Assembly (NCBI GenBank): GCA_018003315.1
Contig: JAGNEJ010000024.1
Span: 1-55,591, forward strand
DNA length: 55,591 nucleotides
Reading direction: 5' to 3'
Origin: Verrucomicrobiales bacterium
GTDB lineage: Bacteria; Verrucomicrobiota; Verrucomicrobiia; Verrucomicrobiales; V1-33
The translations under genes were made by a program, and so were the position numbers. Each line of letters begins with the position of its first letter. The stretch's first letter is position 1. The notes under the pieces were generated by a model, which was given only the letters and a program-made list of their open reading frames with translations, had not been told where the DNA came from and ran no database searches. Below are positions 41,914-46,226 of this stretch, piece after piece.

Positions 41914-42625
41914 ATTCCTCTGCCTGATGCTCGTCGGAATCGCCGCCAGCCTGACAACCTTCAGCCGCGCCGACATTCCTCCGCTGCCTTTCTTCAACCC
42001 GGATGCTCCGAAACCGCCACCGGCGGAGCCGCAGAAAAAACCACAGCCCGCAGGAGCAGTGAGCGTGAAGGAGGATTTCTCCAGCATGGCCGCGGGCGAG
42101 GTGCCTGACGCCTTGATGGTGGTGGACGGGGCCTTTGAAATCGCGGAACTGTCCGGAAACAAATGCCTGCAGCTCAATGCGGAGCCCTTGGTCGATGCCG
42201 GAGTGCTGCTCGGCCGGAGCCTGAAAAACGGAGGCAGCGTGAAGGCAAAAATCCGCGCCACCAGCCGCAAGCGCAGTTTTCCAAAATTCGGGATCGGCAT
42301 CGGCGGCACCAGCGGCTATCGGCTGCTCCTGATCCCGGCGCAAAAACAAATCGAAGTCATCCGCGATGACGAAAACCTGGCCACGGCACCAGCCGCCTGG
42401 AAAAGCGGCGCCTGGTTCTGGATGGAATTTTCCAGCGTGCCGGCCGCGGGTGGCAAAAGCACCCTGGAGGGCCGCATTTGGGAGGACGGACAACCCCGAC
42501 CGGAAAAACCCCTGGTCACCCTCGCCGCGGAGGCGCCGCCTGCCGGAAAATGCTCTGTGTGGGGTGCTCCGTATGCAGGCACTCCGGTGCAGTTCGACGA
42601 CATCGAAATCACCTCCGACAAGTAA
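41906..42625 (+). CDS. Secreted hypothetical protein coupled to the permease
   Basis: 239 aa from MNKFLCLMLVGIAASLTTFS; signal peptide, then a Pro/Lys-rich linker (PDAPKPPPAEPQKKPQPAG) and a beta-sandwich-like domain (VKEDFSSMAAGEVPDALMVV, GSVKAKIRATSRKRSFPKFG, VQFDDIEITSDK) resembling a DUF1080/LamG-type jelly roll with the usual 'V(E/Q)FDDI(E/V)I' end. The ATG overlaps the permease stop by 8 nt, so they are translationally coupled; the protein may be a periplasmic partner. No named family can be given. Confidence 0.7.
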   Translation: MNKFLCLMLVGIAASLTTFSRADIPPLPFFNPDAPKPPPAEPQKKPQPAGAVSVKEDFSSMAAGEVPDALMVVDGAFEIAELSGNKCLQLNAEPLVDAGVLLGRSLKNGGSVKAKIRATSRKRSFPKFGIGIGGTSGYRLLLIPAQKQIEVIRDDENLATAPAAWKSGAWFWMEFSSVPAAGGKSTLEGRIWEDGQPRPEKPLVTLAAEAPPAGKCSVWGAPYAGTPVQFDDIEITSDK

Positions 42626-42807
42626 CTCCACGCCGCGTTAGGCTGCCACCGGCTGCCACCGGCGTCCGGCCAGGCGCAGGAGAACCTCGACGCCGACGAA
42701 TGGTGCCCTCCCGCCGGTTGCCTGGCAAAATTGGGGCAATCATCCATTTTGCATTGACGCAGGCATCATTTTTCGCCAGAGGTCGCGCAGATTTCGCGCC
42801 TCACTTT

Positions 42808-44046
42808 ATGAAAATCCACACCACCGCCTTGTCCCTAGTCTTTCCCCTCAGCCTGTCCGCCTGGGCCGGTCCGACGACGAATATGGGAAGTTCGCTGCTC
42901 GAATATTCCTCCACCCAGGGGACTAATGGCTGGAACTACGGATATTACAACCGCACCACTGACCCTGGCGGCGTGTATTCAGGGACGGAATTTGTGCTGA
43001 TGCCCACCGACGGTGGGGGCGGCTATGCCGTGGGAGGCAATCCCCCGTGGACATCGATTTCCAGCAACCTCGGCGGGCATCCGAACCTGGATGGCACCAA
43101 CGGCGAACACTGGATCATCCGCCGCTACACCGTGGGTGCCGGTGAGGGAGGGGCAGTGGATCTGAACTGGTTGGTCAGCAAGGGCAACGTCGGCTGCGGC
43201 GATGGCGTGACGGGCATGGTCTATCACAATGGCAGCCTGGTGGATTCCGCATCCGTTGCCTTCGATAATGGCACGGGCGTTTATCGCAAAGCAGCCATTC
43301 CCATGGTCAGTCCTGGCGATACCATTGACATGATCGTGTCTCCTGGAACGGGGACGGATTGGTGCGATGGCTCGAATTTCCGCATGGAAATGAACCGGGT
43401 GAATGTGTATTCCGGCTTGACCACCACGCTCATCGCCGACTCGCGCAGCGATTTTGGCCAGAACACCAACGGATGGACCTACGGCATCTACGACATCACT
43501 GCCAATGGCAGCCCTGGGCCGGGGGAATTCCAGCCGTTTGATGGCAGTGCCTGGACGGGCAGCTCGTGGGATTTGCCGGGGGGTGGTGCGCCCTGGACGG
43601 GCATCGATGCGAATGGCGGTCACCCCAACGGCACCAACAATGGTGTCGAACACTGGGCCACCCGCCAATACACCATCGGTGCCGGTGAGGAAGGCCTCAT
43701 CCTCCTGGAGTGGGACCTTTCCAAAGCAAACGCCAGTGGCGGTGGCGGCACCAGCGTCCACATTTTGCACAACGGCACTGAAGTGGCCAGCACCGGCGTG
43801 GAAGGCTGGGACAACCTGGGATTCATGGGGCGGCTCCTCATTCCAGGCGTGGCCGTGGGGGACACGTTGGCAATCGCCCTCGCTCCGCAAGGGCTGGATG
43901 TTGAACTGTTCGGCACCGGGGACATCGGCGATGGGAACGACGGCAGTATCTTCGGCATGAAAATCTACAGCGTGCCGGAGCCAGGCGTGCAGTCGGTGCT
44001 GTTGTTCGTGCTGGGAACGCTCGTCCTGCGCCGCCAGCGCCGGTAA
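42808..44046 (+). CDS. PEP-CTERM protein with duplicated domain
   Basis: 412 aa with a signal peptide (LSLVFPLSLSAWAG). Two ~180-residue copies: NTGWNYGYYN-like TNGWNYGYYNRTTDPGG...GEHWIIRRYTVGAGEGGAVDL (~35-200) and TNGWTYGIYDITANGSPGPG...VEHWATRQYTIGAGEEGLIL (~215-380), each ending in an FGMKIYSV or FRMEMNRVNVY strand. The C-terminus VPEPGVQSVLLFVLGTLVLR followed by RQRR is a PEP-CTERM sorting tail. Cysteines occur only in the first repeat. Likely a secreted surface or extracellular-matrix protein; ligand unknown. Confidence 0.85.
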   Translation: MKIHTTALSLVFPLSLSAWAGPTTNMGSSLLEYSSTQGTNGWNYGYYNRTTDPGGVYSGTEFVLMPTDGGGGYAVGGNPPWTSISSNLGGHPNLDGTNGEHWIIRRYTVGAGEGGAVDLNWLVSKGNVGCGDGVTGMVYHNGSLVDSASVAFDNGTGVYRKAAIPMVSPGDTIDMIVSPGTGTDWCDGSNFRMEMNRVNVYSGLTTTLIADSRSDFGQNTNGWTYGIYDITANGSPGPGEFQPFDGSAWTGSSWDLPGGGAPWTGIDANGGHPNGTNNGVEHWATRQYTIGAGEEGLILLEWDLSKANASGGGGTSVHILHNGTEVASTGVEGWDNLGFMGRLLIPGVAVGDTLAIALAPQGLDVELFGTGDIGDGNDGSIFGMKIYSVPEPGVQSVLLFVLGTLVLRRQRR

Positions 44047-44213
44047 ACCCCGCGCCCAATAGGCACCGCGCTTCCAGCCGGTGCGCAGCCCGGGGCATCC
44101 TGCCCCAAGGGCTCCCGGCCATCCCGGCCGACCACGCGCAAGATGCCGCCACCGCATCGCCACGCCACCACGCCCGGCTTGCACACCCGTGCGAACCCGC
44201 TATTTTTCCGGCC

Positions 44214-44441
44214 ATGCAGATCACCATCGAATACTGCCAGATGTGAAACTACCTCCCCCATGCCACCCGTGCGGCGGCTGAAGTGGAGGCCGGCACCGGA
44301 CACAAGCCGACGCTCATTCCCGGTTCCAAAGGCATCTTCGACGTCAAAGTCGGCCCCCGGCTCGTCTTTTCCAAACACCAGAGCGGACGCCACGCCGAAC
44401 CCGGCGAAGTGGGGAAGCTCGTCCAGGCCGCCCTCGAATGA
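44214..44441 (+). CDS. SelW-like (Rdx family) selenoprotein, Sec at residue 11 (UGA)
   Basis: 75 aa including Sec. ATG 44214, then MQITIEYCQM-UGA (44244-44246)-NYLPHATRAAAEVEAG..., TLIPGSKGIFDVKVGPRLVF, SKHQSGRHAEPGEVGKLVQ and a TGA stop at 44439-44441. The thioredoxin-like fold's CxxC is replaced by CxxU (Cys8-Sec11) and followed by NYxPxA, exactly as in bacterial SelW-related Rdx proteins; the G-x-FDV-x-V and LVFSKxxxGRxxEP parts also fit. Reading through UGA gives a full-length domain, and without it only ten residues remain. A hairpin sits 15-31 nt after the UGA (next entry). Proposed role: thiol redox, as for SelW homologues. Convergent with the ABC membrane gene; standard ORF callers would miss it. 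Confidence 0.85.
44262..44278 (+). promoter_or_regulatory. Candidate bacterial SECIS hairpin
   Basis: GCCACC (44262-44267) pairs with GGCGGC (44273-44278), five pairs with one A-C mismatch, closing the 5-nt apical loop CGTGC. The loop begins 21 nt and its first G 22 nt downstream of the UGA, inside the 16-37-nt window for bacterial SECIS, and G is among the first two loop bases, as SelB recognition prefers. An alternative CCAC/GTGG pairing exists. Fold not computed. Confidence 0.5.
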
Positions 44442-44483
44442 CGGTTTTTGCCGGTGGCGGACAGAAGGGAAATGTCGGCCCGG

Positions 44484-46226
44484 TCAGAGCCGCCCCACCC
44501 GTTCGAGACGGCGGATGCGGCGCAGCGACAGCGCCAGGGGAATGCTGGTGGCCAAAGCGGTGAGCAGCGCGCCTCCGCCCAGGCTCGCCCAGTGGATCCA
44601 TCCGGGACCCGCCGGACCATCGCGCTCCGGACTGCCCATGTGGAGGGCACCGGGAATGATGAAGACTCCCAGGAACAGCAGCACGTAGCCGAAATTCAAT
44701 ATCAGGCAAAGCGTGCCGCCGAATCCGGAAACAATTTTCGACGGATTGGTTTCCTGATAGTTCGGGAACAGCACTCCGAGGCTGAGGGAGAGCGCCGTGA
44801 GTCCAAAGCTGAGCAGGCAGATGGCGGCAATGAAGCGTCCGATGGTTTCCCAGGGCAACAGCAGCCTGGCACCGCTCAGGAGCATGAGTCCGGAGGTGGC
44901 CAGGGCGATGGCGGTGCAGAAGAAGACCAGTTTGACAAAAAACACCCGGCGCAGCGGAAAGGGTGCCAGCCCGAGAATCCACAGGCGGCGTCCTTCCAGG
45001 CTGAACAGCGGGAAGATGAACCGGGTGCTCAGGGTGGACACGGCCAGGGAACAGACACCGAAATTCAGATAGCTGATGAGGGTGATCCAGAAGCGGCTCT
45101 TTGGATCCACCGCAAACCGGTCCAGATTCAGCGAATACAGAAACAGCAGGCCGAACATGATGGAGGAGGGAATCCACTGGGTGGGATCGCGGGTGAATTC
45201 ACGGGCCTCCTTGCGTACCAGAGCGGTGTTGACGCGTCCAAGACCGAACCATTTCCAGAATGGCAGCCCCCGTTCGCCCGGCAGGACGGGCAGACCGTCT
45301 GAAGCGAGCCGCAGCCGCCCTCCGGAGTGGTTCGCCACGCGGGCCGCACGACGCCGGTGGCTCAGCGTCCAGCACGGATAGGTGAACCGGCTGAACAGTT
45401 CGACGCAAAGCCACCCGCAGAACAGCGCCTGGGCCAGCAGCAGCAGGCTGTAAAAGACCTGGCGGGAGGCATCGCTGCGCACCCAGTGGAGAATGAGTTC
45501 ACTCATCCAGGAGCTGGGCAACAGGGGATGTGCGGCCAGTTCCGTGTGGCCGAGCACCTGGCGGATGGCCTGGCTGGCGCTGGCGGAATTTTCGTCAATG
45601 ATGCGGCGGGCGAAGAAATAACTGTCCGCGGCTTTCCAGAGCAGGGCGGCGATTCCCAGCCAGAACAGCGTCCTGGCGATGCGGCCCCAGAGGCGCACCA
45701 GGATAATGACCAGCGCGGCTCCCACCGCTGCCGGGAGCACGAGATACGGAATGAACAGCACGATGCTTTTAACGTAAAACCACGCATCCGCCTGGAACAC
45801 CCTGCCAAAAGCCAGCAGGAGCGGCGCACTGAGAATGGTCACGCCCCAACTGGAAACGGTTAGGGATTCCACCGCCTTCCAGCAGAAGATGGCCCGCGGA
45901 CTGACCGGCAGCGTGAGCAGCCATGCCATTTCCCGCCCGCGGAACAGCCCGCTGTAGAGCAGCACCGCATTGGAAAACACCAGCATGATGAAGAAAAAAA
46001 AGTAGAGCATGTAGAGGGTGCGCTCCACGAGGAGTCCGCCGACCCCCGGCAGCTCAAAGAGATAGCGCAGTCCCCAGGAAAAAAGCAGGTAGCCGGTGAC
46101 CAAATAGCCCAACAGGAACAGGCCCAGGGTGGCCATGAGCAGTTTGGACTCCCGGACGTTTTTCCCGGTCCTGACGCGAAAGACGCGGAGGCTGGTTCTG
46201 GCCAGGATGCAGAAGTGGCTGAACAC
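44484..46226 (-). CDS. ABC exporter-like multi-helix membrane protein
   Basis: 580 aa with about 12 hydrophobic helices (ATLGLFLLGYLVTGYLLFSW, MLYFFFFIMLVFSNAVLLYS, AIALATSGLMLLSGARLLLP, FGYVLLFLGVFIIPGALHMG). The halves 1-310 and 330-580 are each followed by loops with REMAWLLTLPVSPRAIFCWK and EGRRLWILGLAPFPLRRVFF, the 'L..LP.S......K' pattern typical of ABC-2-type permeases acting as membrane exporters. An ATPase is not adjacent; the ABC ATPase at 18854 is of the right type but distant. A basic linker (RRRAARVANHSGGRLRLASDG) separates the halves. Ends 42 bp from the convergent selenoprotein gene. Confidence 0.65.
   Translation of the reverse strand: MFSHFCILARTSLRVFRVRTGKNVRESKLLMATLGLFLLGYLVTGYLLFSWGLRYLFELPGVGGLLVERTLYMLYFFFFIMLVFSNAVLLYSGLFRGREMAWLLTLPVSPRAIFCWKAVESLTVSSWGVTILSAPLLLAFGRVFQADAWFYVKSIVLFIPYLVLPAAVGAALVIILVRLWGRIARTLFWLGIAALLWKAADSYFFARRIIDENSASASQAIRQVLGHTELAAHPLLPSSWMSELILHWVRSDASRQVFYSLLLLAQALFCGWLCVELFSRFTYPCWTLSHRRRAARVANHSGGRLRLASDGLPVLPGERGLPFWKWFGLGRVNTALVRKEAREFTRDPTQWIPSSIMFGLLFLYSLNLDRFAVDPKSRFWITLISYLNFGVCSLAVSTLSTRFIFPLFSLEGRRLWILGLAPFPLRRVFFVKLVFFCTAIALATSGLMLLSGARLLLPWETIGRFIAAICLLSFGLTALSLSLGVLFPNYQETNPSKIVSGFGGTLCLILNFGYVLLFLGVFIIPGALHMGSPERDGPAGPGWIHWASLGGGALLTALATSIPLALSLRRIRRLERVGRL

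Follow-up and report, generated by a model that had tools for sequence, protein, structure and literature searches.

A predicted SelW-like selenoprotein with a CxxU motif in a Verrucomicrobiales genome

We found, in a contig of a Verrucomicrobiales bacterium (assembly GCA_018003315.1, contig JAGNEJ010000024.1), a complete gene whose in-frame UGA is very probably read as selenocysteine (Sec), giving a 75-residue SelW-like selenoprotein (probability about 0.96, judged from sequence; the window hereafter is the whole stretch of DNA analyzed, 55,591 nucleotides long). The UGA would be decoded by SelB and tRNA-Sec(UCA) under the direction of a hairpin starting 16 nt past it, and the thioredoxin-fold product would carry a Cys8-Sec11 redox pair after its first beta strand. 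We infer that Sec is inserted in the source cell itself. By its motif and family the product is probably a small thiol/selenol oxidoreductase; its redox partner and physiological role we infer with less confidence. The gene and its motif are placed as follows:

44214-44441, + strand: gene of a predicted 75-aa SelW-like selenoprotein (Rdx family), Sec at residue 11 (translation, profiles, homologues, model)
44235-44246, + strand: redox motif C8-Q9-M10-U11 (CxxU), with the Sec codon UGA at 44244-44246 (alignment to CxxC homologues, 3dex and 2fa8)

The gene consists of an ATG at 44214, 10 codons, the TGA at 44244-44246, 64 in-frame sense codons, and a TGA stop at 44439-44441. With UGA taken as Sec, the translation of 44214-44441 runs MQITIEYCQM-U-NYLPHATRAAAEVE...LVQAALE, in which C8-Q-M-U11 is followed by NYLPHA. 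Its complete sequence is MQITIEYCQMUNYLPHATRAAAEVEAGTGHKPTLIPGSKGIFDVKVGPRLVFSKHQSGRHAEPGEVGKLVQAALE. A preliminary description of this DNA had reported the same succession of ATG, 10 codons, UGA, and 64 codons, with the UGA at the second-Cys site of a CxxC motif in an NYxPxA context, and both points are borne out by the sequence and its translation. There is no obvious Shine-Dalgarno-like sequence 5′ of the ATG. Just 5′ of the gene, at 42478-44046 (+), lies the gene of a secreted-looking protein with a PEP-CTERM-like C-terminal end (VPEPGVQSVLLFVLGTLVLRRQRR), for which there is no Pfam match.

We dropped the openness of the frame as evidence for the gene: the window has a G+C content of 63%, and 21% of its TGAs precede at least 64 open codons. 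Since such a frame is not rare in the window, the protein match bears the weight, and what stands above chance is a full-length Rdx match on both sides of the UGA together with the comparative evidence. We give next to no credence to the frame being fortuitous and the true gene being one of three overlapping open reading frames (44143-44688 on the + strand, 43965-44393 or 44249-44650 on the − strand). These are open and longer, as expected at this G+C content, but none of the three has a Pfam match, and identity to the nearest relative is ∼60% in the Sec frame versus 26%-50% in the other five readings.

The Sec translation matches the Pfam family PF10262 (Rdx) over residues 2-71 with 54.8 bits (cut-off 22.6; E = 1.1e-14). 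It also scores above the cut-off of TIGR02174 (CXXU_selWTH; 37.7, cut-off 34.2) and below that of NF041051 (77.5, cut-off 88). An AlphaFold model built on 21 homologues has a pLDDT of 93.5 and places the CxxU motif (residues 8-11) after strand 1 (residues 3-8), with a helix starting at residue 14. The top Foldseek match is the SelW-related structure 2fa8 (TM 0.90), and the top solved structures are all bacterial SelW-related proteins (2fa8, 3dex, 2oka, and 2obk; TM 0.84-0.90), followed by human MIEN1 (2ljk) and mouse SelW (2npb). The Rdx/SelW fold proposed in the preliminary description is thus recovered by both profile and model. At residue 11, the Sec site, the alignment has Cys in the CxxC homologues and paralogues as well as in 3dex and 2fa8, which is the pattern that had been looked for among Cys homologues.

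Just downstream of the UGA, two elements of RNA structure are predicted:

44262-44278, + strand: SECIS apical hairpin GCCACC-CGUGC-GGCGGC, five of six pairs formed, with one A.C mismatch (fold; covariation in relatives)
44252-44289, + strand: possible lower helix of the SECIS, pairing 44252-44257 with 44283-44289 (fold prediction)

The published model for bacterial SECIS elements has a loop of 3-9 nt with a G among its first two bases, located 16-37 nt from the UGA, a stem of at least 4 bp, and a minimum free energy of −7.5 kcal/mol or lower (PMC13188914). The window hairpin fits this geometry: its 5-nt loop CGUGC (44268-44272) begins 21 nt past the UGA with G as the second base, and its stem has 5 bp and an internal mismatch (columns 19-29, columns being counted from the base after the UGA). 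Its energy is −5.8 kcal/mol for the 17 nt alone, short of the threshold, which is reached only if the lower helix is counted (−15.8 kcal/mol). The fold of a 57-nt segment of the window is no better in energy than that of shuffled sequences (z = −0.02). Of the preliminary description's hairpin, with its loop 21-22 nt past the UGA, the position and geometry therefore stand, and covariation in about 50 relatives adds to them, whereas the folding energy lends nothing. Since that energy alone is not significant, the SECIS assignment rests on the relatives.

A free search for the best hairpin in each sequence chose differing hairpins in G+C-rich sequences, the window's included, and was dropped; pairs were instead counted in a fixed register, the main family being gapless just past the UGA. 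Across the 50 distinct sequences counted, columns 16-21 and 27-32 make up a stem, and the five-base loop that it encloses has G as its second base without exception. Pairs 21-27 and 20-28 are formed in all 50 (38.3 and 23.9 expected under independence) and pair 18-30 in 46 (34.2 expected), and all three are kept through changes on both sides. Both columns of pair 18-30 and both of pair 21-27 fall on the third base of a codon. When synonymous codons are shuffled within each residue, pair 21-27 is expected in 38.6 sequences and seen in 50 of 50 (z = 7.7), and pair 18-30 in 35.8 and seen in 46 of 50 (z ∼ 5.2). The shuffles ignore relatedness; the control for it is a set of 20 further codon pairs with identical spacings, all of which give z < 2.8. 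Residues 18 and 21 also covary (Asp-Ser, Ala-Ala, Val-Thr, and Ser-Glu), because their codons pair through the first and second bases, at columns 19-20 and 28-29. The conservation of wobble-wobble pairs beyond synonymous expectation identifies the hairpin, by covariation in relatives, as a functional bacterial SECIS. In the Acidimicrobiia-type relatives (CIPUDYSSDAVRV; L052-L058, L062, and L063) the best hairpin mostly lies ∼4 bases nearer the UGA, at a spacing of 17-18; the SECIS register is therefore not fixed across the family.

The source genome (5.09 Mb in 155 contigs, 96% complete) carries a tRNA-Sec with anticodon UCA (TCA) and matches to SelA (497 bits), SelB (287 bits), and SelD (374 bits), and thus encodes the decoding of UGA as Sec. 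The preliminary description had supposed selA, selB, selC, and selD to be present and had named a lack of selB or selC as an outcome that would count against it; all four were located, and all the computational checks it suggested turned out favorably. Reading of the UGA as Trp or Cys through recoding, or by leaky readthrough, is extremely improbable: we found no specific support for it, the gene's own stop is TGA, and the complete set of Sec genes, the location of the UGA at a site where a known Sec family has Cys, and the covarying SECIS hairpin all argue for Sec. Two further genes of the same genome have in-frame TGAs:

L068 1531-1533 (G000:C124): in-frame TGA of SelD, the Sec codon of its CAGU motif
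L120:152-916 (G000:C142), − strand: redoxin/TlpA-like protein with WGRSUGPC (PF08534, 3e-10)

The TGA of SelD occupies the usual CAGU site, and SelD is a probable second selenoprotein. In the redoxin/TlpA-like (thioredoxin-like) protein the UGA takes the first Cys position of a CGPC motif, and this UGPC protein is a probable third. For the Molybdopterin and CMD families there was either no match in the source genome or no in-frame UGA.

Across the order Verrucomicrobiales, 55 of 289 genomes have an Rdx match, in every case including a form with an in-frame TGA; G003, where this form is a decayed remnant, counts among them, and three of the 55 have a CxxC paralogue as well. SelA is found in 53 of the 55 genomes with Rdx versus 40 of the 234 without it (P = 9e-30, uncorrected for shared ancestry); the two Rdx-bearing genomes without SelA are drafts, ∼53% and ∼90% complete. 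Among 57 relatives searched for SelB, all 10 with Rdx have a match, either whole or as a contig-end fragment (G008 and G010). A congener, G001, lacks Rdx, SelA, SelD, and any SelB match above cut-off. The window sequence itself sits on a rather long branch of the homologue tree. A phage origin of the gene was considered and rejected, there being no match in the phage collection.

About 60 homologues, distributed over several phyla, carry a UGA at the identical codon; TGA-bearing forms occur in Verrucomicrobiales, Planctomycetota, Gammaproteobacteria, Acidimicrobiia, and Sphaerobacter (L066 was left out of the set, not being a relative). Intact relatives without a residue at position 11, which the preliminary description had held would refute it, were not seen. 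One relative, G003, has only a remnant of the gene and still has SelA and SelB:

L074:9319-9513 (G003:C26), − strand: decayed SelW-like gene, interrupted by several additional stop codons

This remnant shows that the SelW-like gene does decay in this group of organisms and how such a loss looks, and it is the one observation in favor of the window copy being a pseudogene, that is, a CxxC Rdx gene in which a Cys codon (TGT or TGC) mutated to TGA while the rest decays. The window copy, however, has no such lesions: its 64 codons after the TGA contain no second one. The identical-codon UGA in ∼60 homologues, the full Sec pathway of the source genome, and the maintenance of the downstream hairpin by compensatory synonymous changes in relatives likewise make decay most unlikely, and favor a selenoprotein gene.

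A more useful lead than the window gene itself is a second form of the motif among its relatives. Within the order, 13 SelW-like relatives have two in-frame UGAs, in the context YUxxUNY (L022-L028, L030, L031, L032, L047, L088, and L095; for example, L024:1498-1580). The two UGA codons are 9 nt apart, and the first, 12 nt farther 5′ at a spacing of 33, is still inside the 37-nt limit from the loop. The tree of homologues requires at least three changes between the CxxU and UxxU labels; on this reading bacteria would have exchanged Cys and Sec repeatedly at the first position. UxxU forms of SELENOW are reported from amphioxus and Ostreococcus (PMC7539508), and for prokaryotic SELENOW-like proteins two reviews give CxxU only (PMC9312934, PMC13188914); we found no report of a bacterial UxxU form in the largely open-access literature searched. 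On balance we lean toward the order having a two-Sec SelW-like form, with one SECIS serving two UGAs and a recurrent first-position exchange.

Of the selenoprotein families in the Sargasso Sea, that of the SelW-like CxxU proteins was the most abundant (PMC1088965), and the Global Ocean Sampling data rank it among the most widespread (PMC2398784); bacterial members are covered in the 2022 and 2026 reviews (PMC9312934, PMC13188914). The remark in the preliminary description that such proteins occur in some bacteria agrees with their being among the commonest bacterial selenoproteins. Because they are so common, the window protein is not surprising: it is a new but ordinary CxxU member of the family. 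Its description gives a correct annotation to a gene of which standard gene-calling programs are prone to lose all or part, and places the Sec trait in a verrucomicrobial genus with a congener that lacks Sec. The family alignment also illustrates a coding-region RNA element that constrains synonymous and amino-acid choice alike.

With the known bacterial SelW-like proteins (PF10262), which have been described both from marine metagenomes and from sequenced bacteria, the window protein shares the Rdx fold, the CxxU motif with its UGA at the second position, a SECIS just downstream, and a length of ∼75 residues; it differs in being a divergent verrucomicrobial sequence with one mismatch in the SECIS stem, and there is no substantial difference. 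The Agrobacterium protein Atu0228 (2fa8) and the Streptomyces protein SAV_2001 (3dex) have the same fold (TM 0.84-0.90) with CxxC at the same place, and so carry Cys where the window protein has Sec, at 25%-32% identity. Mammalian selenoprotein W has a CxxU motif, as does the window protein, and the eukaryotic SECIS sits in the 3′ UTR. Mouse SelW (2npb) also has the Rdx fold and is a weaker structural match, with a TM of 0.63.
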